Shown piece after piece: positions 41,770 to 48,227 of a stretch of DNA of 64,000 nt. The notes under the pieces were generated by a model, which saw only the letters and a program-made list of their open reading frames with translations, ran no database searches and was not told the DNA's origin. The position numbers and the translations under genes are program-made. Numbering within the stretch: the first letter of the stretch is position 1; each line of letters opens with the position of its first letter. Source of the DNA: Pseudomonadota bacterium (GTDB taxonomy: Bacteria > Desulfobacterota > Binatia > UBA9968); NCBI GenBank assembly GCA_021324155.1, contig JAJPJQ010000016.1, positions 62,001-126,000 on the forward strand, read 5' to 3'.

Positions 41770-42984
41770 ATGATCGTTCTGCAGGACATTCAGCGTGCGC
41801 GCGAGCGCATTCGCGACCGCATTTACATATCTCCCTGCGCGGCTTCCGAGACGATTAGCCGAATGACCGGCGCGCGGGTTTTTTTCAAGCTGGAGAACCT
41901 GCAGGTGACGGGCTCCTTTAAGGAGCGCGGCGCGCTCAACAAGCTCGCGACACTTAGCGCCGATGAGCGGAGGCGCGGCGTTATCACCGCGAGCGCCGGC
42001 AATCACGGTATGGCGGTCGCGTTCCACACGCAGCGGCTCGGCATCAATGCTACGGTGGTGATGCCGACGCAGGCCCCGCTCATCAAGCTCACGCAGGTGC
42101 GCGGGTACGGCGCCGAGGCGCGATTGTTCGGCGCCGACTACGACGCGGCCTTCGCCGAGGCGGAAAAAATCGCGCGCGAGCGCGATCTTGCTTATATCCA
42201 TCCGTTCGACGATGAACTGATCGTCGCAGGGCAGGGGACGGTCGGGCTCGAGTTGCACGAGCAGAGTCCTGATCTCGATGCAGTCGTCGTCCCGGTCGGC
42301 GGAGGAGGTCTTATCGCCGGCATCGCGGTCGCGCTGAAAGCATTGCATCCTGAAATCCGGATAATCGGCGTGCAGTGCGAGCGCGTTCCGTCGATGCGGG
42401 CGGCGCTGGAAAACGGCCGGCCGGTGCAGGTTCCGCCGGCGACGACGATCGCGGACGGCATCTCGGTGCGCGCGGTCGGCGCGATACCGTTCGAGATCGC
42501 GCGCCGCAATGTTGACGAGATCGTGACTGTCAGCGAAGGCGAAATCGCTCAAGCCGTGCTGCAGTTATTGGAGATCGAGAAGACGGTCGCCGAGGGCGCC
42601 GCCGCCGTGAGCCTCGCGGCGCTCGTACATAAGAAAATATCCCTACCCGGGAAAAACGTCGTCTTGGTGATTTCGGGCGGCAACATCGACGTCAATCTCG
42701 TTTCCCGCATCATCGAGAGAGGCTTGGTCGAAGACGGCCGCCTAGCGGAGATATCGGTGATTCTCCCCGATCGTCCCGGGTCGCTCGCACGGCTCGCCGC
42801 ATGCGTCGCGGCGCAGGGCGCCAACGTCCTGAGCGCGGAGCACGGACGCGGATTCGCCGATGTCGCCATCGGCGAGACGGAGATCCGGTTCGTAATAGAG
42901 ACGACGGGAAGGGGACATATCGAGCAGATACGCGCGGCTCTCAAAAAGGAAGGCTTTCGCATCCCTTTGCCGACGGGGAAATAG
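41770..42984 (+). CDS. ilvA: Threonine ammonia-lyase with C-terminal ACT domain
   Basis: 404 aa PLP fold type II enzyme. The PLP lysine is Lys51 in GSFKERGA, the phosphate-cradle glycines are in VPVGGGGLIAG, and SAGNHGMAVAF matches the family. The C-terminal ACT domain (from about residue 325, EISVILPDRPGSLARLAACV) is a regulatory ligand site, probably for an amino acid such as isoleucine or valine. Makes 2-oxobutanoate from threonine. The AsnC-type ligand-domain gene follows 69 bp downstream. Confidence 0.9.
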   Translation: MIVLQDIQRARERIRDRIYISPCAASETISRMTGARVFFKLENLQVTGSFKERGALNKLATLSADERRRGVITASAGNHGMAVAFHTQRLGINATVVMPTQAPLIKLTQVRGYGAEARLFGADYDAAFAEAEKIARERDLAYIHPFDDELIVAGQGTVGLELHEQSPDLDAVVVPVGGGGLIAGIAVALKALHPEIRIIGVQCERVPSMRAALENGRPVQVPPATTIADGISVRAVGAIPFEIARRNVDEIVTVSEGEIAQAVLQLLEIEKTVAEGAAAVSLAALVHKKISLPGKNVVLVISGGNIDVNLVSRIIERGLVEDGRLAEISVILPDRPGSLARLAACVAAQGANVLSAEHGRGFADVAIGETEIRFVIETTGRGHIEQIRAALKKEGFRIPLPTGK

Positions 42985-42998
42985 CCGGCCCAAGCGTC

Positions 42999-43026
42999 TT
43001 GACAGTCTTGCATCCGCCGATATGGT
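42999..43026 (+). promoter_or_regulatory. Candidate sigma-70 promoter for the AsnC-domain gene
   Basis: TTGACA (42999-43004) and TATGGT (43021-43026) with 16 bp between, 27 bases before ATG 43054. It would let the small gene be transcribed apart from ilvA. Confidence 0.5.
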
Positions 43027-43053
43027 GAACTCAATTCGTCGGGAGGGGTTGCC

Positions 43054-43335
43054 ATGATGACCGCGATCGTCCTGCTCAACACCCATAGGGACAAGGTGAA
43101 CGACGTCGCCGAGCGTATCGCGGATCTCGACGGCGTAACCGAAGTTTATTCGGTCGCCGGCCGATATGATCTCGCCGCGATCGTGCGGGTGAAGGACGAC
43201 GAGCGGCTTGCCGAGGTCGTAACGCGTGACATTCGCAGGATCGAGGGCATCGAGAAATCCGAGTCGCTGATCGCCTTTCGCGTCTACTCCCGGCACGACC
43301 TGGAGCGGATGTTCTCGATCGGCTTCGAATCGTAA
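43054..43335 (+). CDS. Stand-alone Lrp/AsnC ligand-binding (RAM) domain protein
   Basis: 93 aa. The whole protein is the alpha-beta RAM domain of Lrp/AsnC regulators (DGVTEVYSVAGRYDLAAIV, then RRIEGIEKSESLIAF), with no DNA-binding helix-turn-helix. Single-domain relatives bind amino acids as octamers and may modulate full Lrp proteins or enzymes. Placement behind threonine ammonia-lyase suggests branched-chain amino acid sensing (inference). A CGGGAGGGG site precedes the ATG. Confidence 0.88.
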   Translation: MMTAIVLLNTHRDKVNDVAERIADLDGVTEVYSVAGRYDLAAIVRVKDDERLAEVVTRDIRRIEGIEKSESLIAFRVYSRHDLERMFSIGFES

Positions 43336-44083: not shown

Positions 44084-44824
44084 ATGCCGCTTTCAAGCCA
44101 AGCCTTCGTCAAAGAGTTGCACGACATGGTGCGGAAGAAACATTCCAAAGACCATCCCGTCATCGGCATGGTCGAGCGCGGCGAGCTCGATCGCGATGCG
44201 CTGATGGGATTCGTGGGGCAGTTCTATCTTTTCTTTCCAAAGCCGTTTCCCAAGCCGATCGCCGCGATGCTCGGCCGCTGCCCTGAAGACGCGGAGCTCG
44301 AGCGCATGTGGATCGACAACGTCGTCGAAGAGGGCACCGGCGAGATCACCGGCACCGACAGCCACAAGGGACTCTACATCCGCTTCGCGCTCGCGTGCGG
44401 CTACACGCGCGAGCAGCTCGATGCCGTCAAGCCGCTGCCAGAGACCGAGGCGTTTCTAGACTGGCGCGAATTGTTGATGTACCAGCGCACCTGGCTCGAG
44501 CTCTACGCCGGCCAGGGGTTTTGCCTCGAAGGCACCGCGAGCGAGCGGATGACGCGGATCGTAAACGGCCTCACAAAGCACTACGGCTTCAAGCGTGAGT
44601 CGGAAGACATCCGCTACTGGACGCTGCACATGGGCGTCGACGAGGAGCACATGAAAGTAGGGCCGCTCGCCGTCGAGCGCTACGCCACGACGGATTTCCA
44701 GCAGAGCCAGGTGCGGCACGCGGTGCAGAAAACGCTCGACCAGTTCTGGCTCGCTTACGACGGCATCCAGCGCGCCTTCGTCGACAAGGATCCGATTTAC
44801 GCCGCCTGGCGCAACGGCAAGTAA
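44084..44824 (+). CDS. Haem-oxygenase-fold (PqqC/TenA-like) iron enzyme, copy 1
   Basis: 246 aa from ATG 44084 behind a CGGAGGAG site. All-helical protein of the iron-containing redox enzyme (HDO-like) type. Probable metal ligands: Glu residues in EEGTGEI with a following His (DSHKG), and the block HMGVDEEHMKVG near the end. Two more copies lie at 57740 and 61048, each with an H-x3-(D/N)-(E/D)-x-H block. Family members catalyse oxidative cleavage or ring chemistry of small molecules. First gene of a tight operon through 48227. Confidence 0.8.
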   Translation: MPLSSQAFVKELHDMVRKKHSKDHPVIGMVERGELDRDALMGFVGQFYLFFPKPFPKPIAAMLGRCPEDAELERMWIDNVVEEGTGEITGTDSHKGLYIRFALACGYTREQLDAVKPLPETEAFLDWRELLMYQRTWLELYAGQGFCLEGTASERMTRIVNGLTKHYGFKRESEDIRYWTLHMGVDEEHMKVGPLAVERYATTDFQQSQVRHAVQKTLDQFWLAYDGIQRAFVDKDPIYAAWRNGK

Positions 44825-44833
44825 GGACGCTTT

Positions 44834-45490
44834 ATGGAAATGGTCGATCTCTCGCGCGTGATTTACGACGGCATGCCGAAGATTCCGGTGCTGCCCGAAG
44901 TGCGCGTGAAAAAATTCTTCGATCTCGGCAAAGGCCATCCGCTGAACGTCACCGAGCTGTCGCTGCCGTGTCATGCCGGCACTCACGTCGACGCGCCGGT
45001 GCACATCGTGCCGAACGGGAAATCCATCGAGGAACTGCCGCTGGAGAGCTTCATCGGCCCCGGCGCGGCGATCTCGGTCAGGAAACAAGGCGGCGAAGAG
45101 GTAACGGCCGCCGATCTGGAGAAATCCGGCGTCGCAGTCAATCGCGGCGATATCGTCATGCTGCACACCGGCTGGGACGAGAAATTCGAAAGTCCAGACT
45201 ACAATCTCCATCCGTATTTATCGGTCGACGCCGCCGAGTGGCTGGTCAAAAAGGGAGTCAAGCTCTTCGGCATCGACTGCATCACCGTCGATCTGCCGAC
45301 GCCGCTGAGATCGAAGGGGTTCGATTTCCCGGTGCACAAAACGCTGCTCGGCAACGGCGTTCTCATCGCCGAGAACGTCGCCAACATCGGCCGCATCGTC
45401 GGGCGCAAGACCCGCATCATGGCGCTGCCGCTGCGCGTCAAAGGCAGCGACGCCGGCCACGCGCGTATCGTCGCCGAAGTCCTGAACTAA
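44834..45490 (+). CDS. Cyclase-family metal hydrolase (kynurenine formamidase-like)
   Basis: 218 aa. The family metal motif is present as CHAGTHVDAPVHIV (HxGTHxDxPxH), with a further DIVMLHTGWDEKF segment and FGIDCITVDLP. Cyclase-family enzymes hydrolyse amides or lactones (formylkynurenine, isatin) through a metal-bound water. Nine bp after the haem-oxygenase-fold gene and 3 bp before the aldolase gene, so it probably acts on a product of the former (inference). Confidence 0.88.
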   Translation: MEMVDLSRVIYDGMPKIPVLPEVRVKKFFDLGKGHPLNVTELSLPCHAGTHVDAPVHIVPNGKSIEELPLESFIGPGAAISVRKQGGEEVTAADLEKSGVAVNRGDIVMLHTGWDEKFESPDYNLHPYLSVDAAEWLVKKGVKLFGIDCITVDLPTPLRSKGFDFPVHKTLLGNGVLIAENVANIGRIVGRKTRIMALPLRVKGSDAGHARIVAEVLN

Positions 45491-45493
45491 CCC

Positions 45494-46462
45494 ATGCCAG
45501 CACAGCAGCCGGTCAAAGGGATTATCGGCGCGTGTCTCACGCCCTTCGGCGAGGACGAGCGCGTCGACTTCAAGGCGCTCGAAAAAGAGATCGACTTTCT
45601 CGTCGCCGATTGCGACGCAGTATCGATCGCGGCGGTCGAGGCCGCGGAGTACACCATGCTCTCGCGCCAGGAGCGGAAAGAACTGCTCCGGGTCGCGACC
45701 GAGATGGTCGCCAAGCGCAAGCCCGTGCTGCTCGGCGCGTCGAGCCCGTCGCCGCGCGAGGTGATCGAGCTCGCGGAATACGCCGCAAGCATCGGCGGCG
45801 ACTTCATTCAGGTGTTGATGCCGCTCCGACCGTGGGGCGGGCAGCCGACGATCGCCGAGCTGATGGAATTCTACACGCAGGTCGCTTCGGCCAGTCCGCT
45901 GCCGGTCGTCTGCTACCACAACCCTGGCCCCGGAGCCGACCCGCCGCAGGACGCGTTCGTCAAGATCAGCGAGATTCAGAACATCCGTTATTTCAAAGAG
46001 AGCTCGCGCGACATCACCAAGATCTCGCGGCTGATCGAGCAGATCGACCTCGCCGGCCGCGGGCATTATTTCACGACGATGCAGCCGCTGCTCGCGACGC
46101 TCATGATGGGCGGCTCCGGAGCGACGATGCCGCCGCCAGGCACGCGCATCGGCGCACAGGTGGTCCGCGCTTTCCGCGCCGGGAACTTGGAGCAGGCGCG
46201 ATACTGGCAGCGTTGCTTCGCGCTCTTTCCCGGCAAGTGGGCCGCCTACGGTCTGCCGCCGGTGATGAAGTCGGCGATGAAGCATTTCGGCGTCGATATC
46301 GGCGATCCGTCGAAGCCCTACGCACCGGTGAGCCCGCGCGACCACGCGCAGATCGGCCAGTTTCTCCGCCAGATCGGCATTCTCGGCGAAGGCGCGCCTT
46401 CCGAGACGACGCTCAAAGACGCCGCCGAGGCGCTCCGTCAGGAAGATACTTTCCTGCGCTGA
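45494..46462 (+). CDS. DapA/NanA-family aldolase (class I, Schiff base)
   Basis: 322 aa (beta/alpha)8 barrel of the dihydrodipicolinate synthase family. Visible: ACLTPFGEDERVDFKAL, the tyrosine block PVVCYHNPGP, and the Schiff-base lysine in YFKESSRD. It lacks the usual GTTGE loop (it reads SIAAVEAAEYTML), so lysine synthesis is doubtful; many such relatives act on hydroxy-oxo acids. Third gene of the 44-48 kb operon. Confidence 0.88.
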   Translation: MPAQQPVKGIIGACLTPFGEDERVDFKALEKEIDFLVADCDAVSIAAVEAAEYTMLSRQERKELLRVATEMVAKRKPVLLGASSPSPREVIELAEYAASIGGDFIQVLMPLRPWGGQPTIAELMEFYTQVASASPLPVVCYHNPGPGADPPQDAFVKISEIQNIRYFKESSRDITKISRLIEQIDLAGRGHYFTTMQPLLATLMMGGSGATMPPPGTRIGAQVVRAFRAGNLEQARYWQRCFALFPGKWAAYGLPPVMKSAMKHFGVDIGDPSKPYAPVSPRDHAQIGQFLRQIGILGEGAPSETTLKDAAEALRQEDTFLR

Positions 46463-46477: not shown

Positions 46478-46786
46478 ATGATTCTCTTCCTCATCATTTT
46501 CGTCGCAATCATCGCGCTGCTCATCGTCGTTCCCGCGTGGCGCGAGCGCTTTGTCGAGGCCCTTAAAACTTTTTCCGACACGGCGATCGTGAGCTTTCTT
46601 CGCGCAACATCGCGCTTCGGCGCCGAGCTCACGGAGGAGGGCAAGGCGGAGCAGGTCCGCTGGCGCGAACAGCGGATGAGAAATCTGCGCGGCCTTTCGC
46701 TCCGCGCCCGAGAGCGCTCGCGCCGCTCGAACGGCGATCAGCCGGTGGACAACAAAAACAAGCCTCCTTCGGATCTGAGCTTCTAG
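46478..46786 (+). CDS. Small membrane-anchored hypothetical protein
   Basis: 102 aa. One N-terminal membrane segment (ILFLIIFVAIIALLIVVPAW), then a basic amphipathic region rich in Arg and Glu (residues 50-82), ending in a polar tail. No domain recognised. It lies between the aldolase (15 bp) and the flavoprotein (2 bp), so its presence in the operon is fairly secure even though its role is not. Confidence 0.7.
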   Translation: MILFLIIFVAIIALLIVVPAWRERFVEALKTFSDTAIVSFLRATSRFGAELTEEGKAEQVRWREQRMRNLRGLSLRARERSRRSNGDQPVDNKNKPPSDLSF

Positions 46787-46788
46787 CC

Positions 46789-47940
46789 ATGACCGGCCAG
46801 CGCAAACAGATCGTGATCCTCGGCGGCGGCAGCGGCGGCGTCGTCGCGGCGACCAAACTCGCGCGCGCGCTCGGCGACCGGCACGACGTCATTCTCGTCG
46901 ACCGGCGTCCGGAGCATGTGTTCATGCCCGGCTTTCTCTTTCTCCTGGTCGGACAGCGCGAGCCCGAGCAGATCATGCGGCGCCTGCGCCGCCTCGAGCG
47001 CCACGGCGTCAAGATTCTCCAGGACGAAGTGCTCGGCATCGACGCGGCGCGGCAGGAAGTCGCGCTGGTGGGGCATAAGGTTCACTACGACTATCTCATC
47101 GTCGCGCTCGGCTTCGATACGCGGCCCGATATGATTCCCGGCTACGCCGAAGGCGCGCACCACGCGTGGGAGCTCGACGCCGCCATGCGGGCGCGGCGCG
47201 CGCTCGATGAATTCGACGGCGGGCGCGTCGTCGTCGGCGTGCCGCTCGGGCCGTATCGGTGCCCGCCGGCGCCGTACGAGACGCAGTGGATGCTCGACGG
47301 CTACTTCAAGCGGCGCGGTATGCGGGACCGTGTCACGATCGAATATTTCACGCGCGAGGCCGAGCCCGCGGGCGAGGCGCGCGACCCGGTCGTATGGATG
47401 GACGCGGAGAGCCGCCGCCGCGGCATCAAGCAGCACTATGAATTCGTCGTGCAATCGATCGATGCCGAGCGCAAAACGGTGAACGGCCTCTACGGCTACA
47501 AGCTCGCGTACGATTTGCTCTTCATGATCCCGCCGCACCGGCCCGCGCGCGCGCTGATCGACTCGGGACTTGCGGACACGGAGACCGGCATCCGCGTGGA
47601 TTACGATACGCTCGCGACGAAATGGGACAACGTCTACGCGATCGGCGATTGCGCCGACATGCCGGCGTCGAAAGCCGGTGTCGTCGCGCATCAGGAAGCC
47701 GACGTCGTCGCGCATAACCTGACAGCGGAGATCACGGGCAGGGGAGAGCCGACTCCCCTGCGCCTGCATACGATATGACTGCTCGCGTACGGCGCCGGGC
47801 GCGCCGCGATGAACCGCACGATCTATCCCTCGGGCTGGCCGCCCTTCGCCGCGACCGAGGCCCGCACCTGGGGGCCTTCGCCGTTTATCTATTGGGCGAA
47901 GATCGGGTTTGAAAAGTGGTGGCTCTGGCGGTATTTTTAG
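46789..47940 (+). CDS. SQR/FCSD-like FAD oxidoreductase with selenocysteine at the catalytic Cys (TGA at codon 330)
   Basis: 383 residues if TGA (47776-47778) is read through. The N-terminus has VILGGGSGGVVAA (FAD) and the sulfide:quinone reductase signature Cys158 in GPYRCPPAPYE; AIGDCAD closes the FAD domain. After TGA the same frame continues LLAYGAGRAAM, NRTIYPSGWPPF and WAKIGFEKWWLWRYF to TAG at 47940, which is the C-terminal layout of SQR-type proteins. The TGA aligns with the second redox cysteine of SQR (Cys356 of the A. ferrooxidans enzyme; Cys158 aligns with its Cys160). Role: probable sulfide or persulfide oxidation at the membrane; electrons to quinone (inference). Confidence 0.85.
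47783..47809 (+). promoter_or_regulatory. Candidate SECIS hairpin of the SQR-like gene
   Basis: TCGC (47783-47786) pairs with GCGA (47806-47809); after a 4-base bulge, GGCGC (47791-47795) pairs with GCGCC (47801-47805), leaving loop CGGGC. The loop begins 18 bases after the TGA. The CGGG loop resembles that of the redoxin hairpin (CGGGA). Confidence 0.6.
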
Positions 47941-47948
47941 AGGAACAC

Positions 47949-48227
47949 ATGGCGCGCAGGATCGCAAAGAAGTCCGCCCTCGATTATGTTTGCGGATATT
48001 GCCTCTTCTTCCAGCCGCAGTCGGGAGACAACGGCAACCTTAAGTCCGGCAACTGCGCCTATCACAAGGAATGGATCGAGAACGCCTACCGCACGACCTG
48101 CAGCGACATGAGCAACCAAGCGCTCAGCGAAAAAGGCATCTATCGCCTCGTCTCCAATTCCGGTGCCGGCTGGGACTATATCCGGCGCACCGAGAAACTC
48201 CGCACCCGCCTTTACGCCGTCAAGTAG
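47949..48227 (+). CDS. Small cysteine-rich hypothetical protein
   Basis: 92 aa from ATG 47949, 8 bp after the SQR-like gene. Cysteines at CGYC (residues 15 and 18), NCAYH and TTCSDM give four Cys plus a His in a C-x2-C-x(n)-C-x(n)-C layout, suited to a zinc site or an iron-sulfur cluster. As the last gene of the operon it may carry electrons for the flavoprotein. No family recognised. Confidence 0.7.
   Translation: MARRIAKKSALDYVCGYCLFFQPQSGDNGNLKSGNCAYHKEWIENAYRTTCSDMSNQALSEKGIYRLVSNSGAGWDYIRRTEKLRTRLYAVK

Follow-up and report, generated by a model that had tools for sequence, protein, structure and literature searches.

A predicted selenocysteine-containing SQR-like flavoprotein encoded in a conserved gene cluster

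The locus

The window (the whole 64,000-nucleotide stretch that was analysed) carries a gene for a sulfide:quinone reductase (SQR)-like flavoprotein with an in-frame TGA, preceded by genes for a small protein, a DHDPS-family enzyme, a cyclase and a PF14518 protein (Table 1). Conventional reading gives an ORF of 329 aa (46789-47778) that is terminated by TGA 47776-47778; ordinary gene calling ends the gene there, and the enzyme would thus be overlooked or mistaken for a truncated SQR. Beyond the TGA the frame stays open for a further 53 codons, and the C-terminal end of the extended product reads ...IYWAKIGFEKWWLWRYF.

Table 1. Coordinates of the features discussed, numbered from the first base of the window.
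Feature	Position	Strand	Remarks
PF14518/TENA-PqqC-like iron-containing redox enzyme gene	44084-44824	+	compared by tblastn
PF04199 cyclase (formamidase-like) gene	44834-45490	+	compared by tblastn
DHDPS-family (DapA-like) gene	45494-46462	+	precedes the SQR-like gene in 23 of the 24 loci with sufficient DNA
Small protein gene	46478-46786	+	102 aa, hydrophobic helix at the N-terminus; separated by 2 nt from the SQR-like gene downstream
Predicted Sec-containing SQR-like flavoprotein gene	46789-47940	+	383 aa via TGA readthrough; stop TAG 47938-47940
Cys158 codon	47260-47262	+	first redox cysteine, RCPPAPYE; place of human SQOR Cys201
ATA codon (Ile329)	47773-47775	+	just before the TGA; ATA in 27 of 27 Ile codons there
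In-frame TGA, predicted Sec330	47776-47778	+	at the column of the second SQR redox cysteine (Cys379 in human SQOR)
SECIS-type hairpin	47791-47805	+	GGCGC 47791-47795, loop CGGGC 47796-47800, GCGCC 47801-47805; extra pair 47790-47806

Conservation of the in-frame TGA

With the protein as query we searched 35 genomes from the window's order, ignoring the codon at residue 330. Some match was found in 29 genomes, 26 of which each hold one close homologue that reaches this residue; three contain distant relatives only, and the remaining six gave no match. All 26 close homologues have an in-frame TGA at residue 330, after HTI and before LL...G[AV]GRAA, and the full pattern that follows the TGA is LL...G[AV]GRAAxNRT...WWLWR[YF]F. 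Some are fragments, either because the gene lies at a contig end (e.g. G001, G030 and G033) or because it is broken upstream (G012, G018 and G023). The initial annotation had claimed that a TGA at 47776 splits an SQR-like gene whose frame continues past it; the shared TGA and the same kind of protein sequence behind it in all 26 homologues bear this out.

From a search of genome contigs the best 80 of 482 loci were kept, and 47 of the 80 were read for the codon. Of the 26 closest named loci in this set (L051-L076), 23 have the TGA. L072 stops short of the residue; L070 and L074 are broken upstream and have the TGA in their 3' parts. By their match ranges L077 and L078 also end short of residue 330, and L079 has the TGA. 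Close loci among these best 80 are 61-81% identical to the window protein and are titled Deltaproteobacteria or Candidatus Binatia (one Syntrophobacter), Acidobacteria or Chloroflexi; since every named close relative among them is titled as a MAG, the record titles and gene content may be wrong. Below this group identity falls to the thirties, and the loci read there have no TGA at this position, with the exception of L094. A plasmid search returned 231 records, all below 60% identity, with no close copy among them.

Aligned with Cys-bearing SQR/FCSD homologues, as had been proposed, the residue falls on a column that is Cys in all 23 rows without the TGA (38-row alignment); the Cys158 column of this wide alignment is Cys in 38 of 38 rows. 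The gene thus has its in-frame UGA where homologues have a conserved Cys, the pattern by which a bacterial selenoprotein is recognized. Across 33 distinct TGA-bearing sequences, codons after the TGA differ mostly at third positions while the encoded protein is conserved, the behaviour of a translated region. Because these 33 were chosen for having the TGA, we did not use them to judge its universality, for which we relied on the order search and the 47-locus reading. The window lineage is tightly conserved (mean column identity 83% over 11 rows) and, by its sequences, is a separate Sec lineage with a predicted Sec in every row read, under Deltaproteobacteria/Binatia, Acidobacteria and Chloroflexi titles.

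Selenocysteine machinery and the SECIS-type hairpin

The genes selA, selB, selC and selD had been named as the ones to look for, and all four products are found in the window's genome: SelA (519.7 bits), SelB (412.3), tRNA-Sec (74.8) and SelD (391.6). SelB was over the cut-off in 29 of the 35 genomes of the order and in 22 of the 26 that carry the gene. Three of the other four gene-bearing genomes (G001, G032 and G033) have tRNA-Sec over the cut-off; the fourth, G024 (94% complete, 790 contigs), has neither SelB nor tRNA-Sec over it. SelB occurs without the SQR-like Sec gene in seven genomes of the order, and in G020 and G031 neither SelB nor tRNA-Sec is over the cut-off and the gene is also absent. 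Eight named genomes with the TGA-bearing gene were tested, and SelB was over the cut-off in all except that of L067.

The selD gene of the window's genome (L143, G000:C16:68287-69216) adjoins selB and selA and has an in-frame TGA of its own, so SelD is probably a selenoprotein itself. Many SelD proteins are known with such a TGA.

Within 47779-47830, the segment whose folding the initial annotation had suggested, we found a hairpin that conforms to the bSECIS limits of PMC13188914 (section 5), with 17 nt from the TGA to the loop and 12 nt to the stem. Across the 33 sequences it consists of GGCGC (GGCGT in two), a five-nucleotide loop NGGN(C/A) and GCGCC; the last stem base differs in three sequences, giving a G-U pair in two and an unpaired base in one. 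The hairpin has no advantage in stability over shuffled versions of its GC-rich sequence (z +1.26; 182 of 200 shuffles as good), and we rejected its MFE as evidence. Pairs that vary on both sides hardly occur, the first and second codon positions being fixed. As the hairpin energy is unremarkable for the composition, we tested for coding constraint instead, and the case for a SECIS rests on third positions.

Fourfold third-position variability was scored over 31 codon-aligned sequences, with 137 scorable columns. The three least variable columns are codons 335, 338 and 339, exactly the third positions within the stem: codon 335 is GGC in 31 of 31 sequences, codon 338 CGC in 28 of 28 and codon 339 GCC in 30 of 31. 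The remaining three sequences have Ser AGC at codon 338, which retains the pairing bases. Loop codons 336 and 337 are free to vary (1.61 and 1.69 bits at the third position versus a median of 1.48). The Ile codon just before the TGA is ATA in all 27 cases, unlike the gene's ten further scored Ile columns, which are mostly ATC; this is possibly a codon-context effect and may reflect a requirement for UGA decoding. Read from the sequence, residue 330 of the 46789-47940 product is almost certainly selenocysteine.

Fold, redox residues and enzyme class

Pyr_redox_2 and the FCSD central domain (PF21706; 37.6 bits versus a cut-off of 27) are the Pfam matches over their cut-offs. Among solved structures, those closest to the family profile are human SQOR, FCSD and bacterial SQRs. 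In the profile alignment Cys158 falls on the first redox cysteine of human SQOR and Sec330 on the second, in agreement with the assignment of the initial annotation. The predicted structure (pLDDT 92.2, pTM 0.91) superposes on A. ferrooxidans SQR 3sxi over 368 residues at 2.5 Å (Z 44.2), on A. aeolicus SQR and FCSD 3vrd (Z 43.4 each) and on human SQOR 6oi5 (Z 43.0); NDH-2-type chains score lower (Z about 38 and less). This fold, together with both redox positions, upholds the original identification as SQR-like. FCSD flavoprotein chains match the model nearly as well as SQR does, and no cytochrome family, as would be expected of an FCSD partner gene, was found among the ten neighbours scanned, four of which have no Pfam match at all. 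According to the model, the protein has an SQR/FCSD fold with an FAD site and would be expected to bind FAD; by alignment, Cys158 and the predicted Sec330 are the redox pair near the flavin, at the two SQR columns.

Besides both redox positions, the window protein shares the GDC and SK motifs with human SQOR, and the fold is shared with human SQOR and A. ferrooxidans SQR (PDB 6oi5, 8dhk, 3sxi; Z 43-44). Identity to these enzymes is only 22-26%, the window model has a single C-terminal helix, and Sec330 stands where human SQOR has Cys379. The quinone site described in PMC9666304 comprises apolar residues on either side of the C-terminal cysteine and a Phe and Trp three apart in a single C-terminal helix, a text that Ile329, Leu331, Phe374 and Trp377 match by sequence. 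Compared by text, the type VI SQR TrSqrF of that paper is alike in its one C-terminal helix, its apolar-Cys-apolar arrangement and its Phe...Trp (i, i+3). Its Val331/Ile333 and Phe366/Trp369 correspond to Ile329/Leu331 and Phe374/Trp377, and its Cys332 to Sec330; this likeness to type VI is one of description. We infer a quinone site and a reaction of this kind from these residues, with sulfide as the putative substrate, and consider that SQR-type chemistry with quinone is probably what the protein performs.

Relationship to known selenoproteins

The initial annotation had not counted this as an established selenoprotein family, and here it has to be corrected. Under NF049943, with motif HxxU, Table 1 of PMC13188914, a 2026 review, lists a 'Type III sulfide quinone reductase, selenoprotein subtype' and names deep-Sep as its source, and deep-Sep (2025) reports an NAD(P)/FAD-dependent oxidoreductase selenoprotein in two Desulfosediminicola (PMC12013277). 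According to these sources the Sec SQR as a kind is already known as a prediction; the open-access literature searched yielded none beyond the NF049943 case. What is new here is a well-supported Sec lineage with an unusual conserved cluster, the Sec form of the enzyme having been predicted elsewhere.

NF049943 is the best NCBIfam match of the window protein (255.6 bits, E 7e-76), but the score lies below the curated cut-off of 525 and the last 64 model positions are unmatched. The protein thus falls outside the family by score, and it does not group with the family's Sec members. A sample of 198 genomes from the window's phylum, in the grouping of the search tool, gave 13 matches over the cut-off; two of these have a TGA, at the same column as Sec330. 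The other 11 have no internal stop, and the six that were read (L131, L133, L138, L140, L141 and L142) have Cys, so the model tracks a mostly-Cys clade.

The window protein and the NF049943 selenoproteins are both SQR-type flavoproteins with Cys-type relatives, a predicted Sec at the same SQR column and HxxU spacing. The motif is HTIU in the window protein and HATU in the NF049943 sequences L134 and L136, to which it is 31-33% identical, and its C-terminus (WWLWRYF) differs from the NF049943 tail. Every close homologue of the window protein that was read and reaches the residue has the TGA, whereas only 2 of 13 over-cut-off NF049943 matches do. These two come from another family of the window's phylum in the tool's grouping, and the deep-Sep cases from Desulfosediminicola. 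Within the short flanks available, the window's neighbours were not found beside the NF049943, L094 or L153 genes. The FAD-dependent CoA-disulfide reductase selenoprotein (TIGR03385) listed in PMC13188914 is likewise a pyridine-nucleotide-disulfide-type flavoprotein with Sec; its motif there is UGxP, as against HTIU, and the window protein matches the model weakly (39.6 of 578.8 bits).

Origins of selenocysteine at the SQR column

A tree of 34 rows, built with the Sec column removed, placed the 11 rows of the window lineage together at 100/100 and required three changes of the Sec label, two of them forced by starred branches. A single clade of all Sec rows was rejected (p 1e-7), as were clades joining L094 (p 0.0097) or the NF049943 Sec rows (p 1e-41) to the window lineage. 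An origin of the window lineage separate from NF049943 is thus very likely.

We sampled 245 genomes from the class of L066's genome with a match threshold of E 1e-40. Among the 52 that matched, an internal TGA was present only in G342 (L066's own genome) and G376 (L153). Ten of the 52 loci were fetched, of which L152 is from the genome of L066 and the other nine (L153-L161) were added to the tree; L097, L113, L048, L049 and L096 were dropped for a short C-terminus, long branches or far relationship. The resulting 38-row tree, which carried a long-branch warning, required four changes of the label, three of them forced. Because tree changes do not separate gain from loss, an old Sec with many reversions to Cys is also possible. 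In our judgement the chances are about even that Sec was recruited independently three to four times at the outgoing-sulfur residue of SQR-like enzymes (window lineage, NF049943, the Clostridia locus L094 and L153, from another Chloroflexota-class genome) and that it is obligate in the window-lineage cluster, where it would form, with the DHDPS-like enzyme and the small membrane partner, an undescribed Sec-dependent sulfur/selenium module. If this is true, the repeated change from Cys to Sec singles out the outgoing-sulfur step as one under chemical pressure, and natural Sec/Cys pairs would make it possible to measure what each residue contributes to the SQR cycle.

The SQR-like gene L153:1501-2643 (G376) has its TGA at the same column among Cys-type relatives and, at the same distance from the TGA as in the window, a hairpin with a 7-bp stem and the loop CGGGA.

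L094:4345-5352 (Clostridia bacterium AS08sgBPME_346) is also SQR-like with a TGA at this column; its N-terminus looks cut, and by eye the gene has an IscR/IscS/IscU-like run on one side and a second NifU-like gene on the other. SelB is present in its genome (352.6 bits). The fold after the TGA is less stable (MFE -8.0 over 42 nt) and depends on the length of sequence folded; together with the long branch on the tree, this makes Sec in L094 less sure.

Gene neighbourhood

The window's neighbours were compared by tblastn against L051-L095. Of the 25 loci whose DNA covers this place, 22 have a relative of the small protein next to the SQR-like gene, and all three title groups are represented; the exceptions are L063, in which a similar ORF was seen, L069 and L078. 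ORF extraction recovered it in 2 of 15 loci only, so its conservation rests on tblastn. The protein has no Pfam or NCBIfam match and is possibly a membrane-type anchor or partner of the SQR-like enzyme. The DHDPS-like gene also lies upstream under all three title groups, the exception being L069 with a 50% relative on the other strand. Among L051-L095 the cyclase gene accompanies the SQR-like gene only in Deltaproteobacteria/Binatia-titled loci and L055, and the PF14518 gene in these and in Chloroflexi L066, where it lies 4 kb downstream. ORF clustering of 20 loci added a further family present in 12, whose member in L066 is a PF04909 amidohydrolase. The conserved neighbour set argues for an enzyme that serves a fixed partner reaction, and the cluster is a lead to the cellular substrate. 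These neighbours have no known link with sulfide, and a pathway cannot be written from them.

Alternative readings

A true stop at the TGA, with the downstream frame a decaying remnant or a second short protein, agrees with the standard reading and would leave a 329-residue product that retains the FAD domain and Cys158. It is exceedingly improbable given that the TGA and the protein sequence behind it are kept in 26 of 26 genes, given the third-position constraint and the hairpin, and given the Sec machinery. We give scarcely any credence to a selenium-free product with an ordinary amino acid (e.g. Trp, or Cys by misreading) at the TGA: TGA is the normal terminator of the adjacent DHDPS-family gene and of several SQR-like homologues, which argues against its general recoding, rows without TGA have Cys and not Trp at the column, and the Sec machinery is complete. 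It is quite unlikely that the gene is a divergent member of the described NF049943 type III SQR selenoprotein, with nothing new about it; the best NCBIfam match, the same column and the same HxxU spacing speak for this, but the score is about half the cut-off with the model's end unmatched, the joint Sec clade is rejected, the model's clade is mostly Cys, the C-terminus differs and the short flanks have no neighbours in common. On this evidence all three readings were rejected.

The nature of the substrate is a closer matter. An SQR-fold Sec flavoprotein that passes electrons to quinone might act not on sulfide but on a product of the neighbouring catabolic enzymes, such as an organic thiol, a thiocarboxylate or a selenium compound. 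The DHDPS-like, small-protein and SQR-like genes stay together in all three title groups, the ORF cluster with the PF04909 member and the PF14518 gene recur, and the lineage is tightly conserved, all of which would fit; however, the protein retains both redox positions of true SQRs and also, judged by sequence, their quinone-site pattern, and the neighbours suggest no writable pathway. We regard such a substrate as rather unlikely, though worth keeping in mind.

Proposed mechanism

We think it likely that 46789-47940, taken as a whole, encodes a 383-residue Sec flavoprotein of the SQR/FCSD group in which UGA is decoded at a SECIS and the chemistry resembles that of SQOR. The comparative evidence suggests that SelB and tRNA-Sec would decode the UGA at the 5-6 bp, GG-loop hairpin 17 nt downstream, so that selenocysteine 330 would substitute for the second redox cysteine. 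In human SQOR, sulfide attacks the Cys379-Cys201 trisulfide; Cys379 then becomes a persulfide and donates its sulfur to the acceptor, and the Cys201 persulfide engages FAD (PMC11039317). As Sec330 aligns with Cys379, we modelled the chemistry on this enzyme. Sulfide or a similar small sulfur nucleophile would attack the bridge between Cys158 and residue 330, and the latter would hold the outgoing sulfane sulfur as the selenium analogue of a Cys persulfide. The Cys158 persulfide would hand electrons to FAD and thence to quinone through a channel formed by Ile329, Leu331, Phe374 and Trp377. Sec at residue 330 may be the better leaving group and the faster acceptor; judging by the fold and the conserved residues, a Sec-Cys pair may alter sulfide or persulfide reactivity, as suggested at the outset. 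As a guess, the cellular substrate may be sulfur released or handled by the neighbouring DHDPS-like, cyclase-like, PF14518 and amidohydrolase enzymes.

Flanking genes

Directly downstream of the SQR-like gene, 47949-48227 encodes a 92-aa Cys-rich protein with no Pfam family. Relatives with 43-58% identity follow the SQR-like gene directly in L052, L057 and L070 and at a distance of some hundreds to 1,500 bases in L059, L060, L062, L071, L073 and L079. Upstream of the cluster, 41770-43335 holds a PALP/ACT-domain (threonine dehydratase-like) gene and, behind it, a short gene whose sole domain is an AsnC ligand-binding domain.
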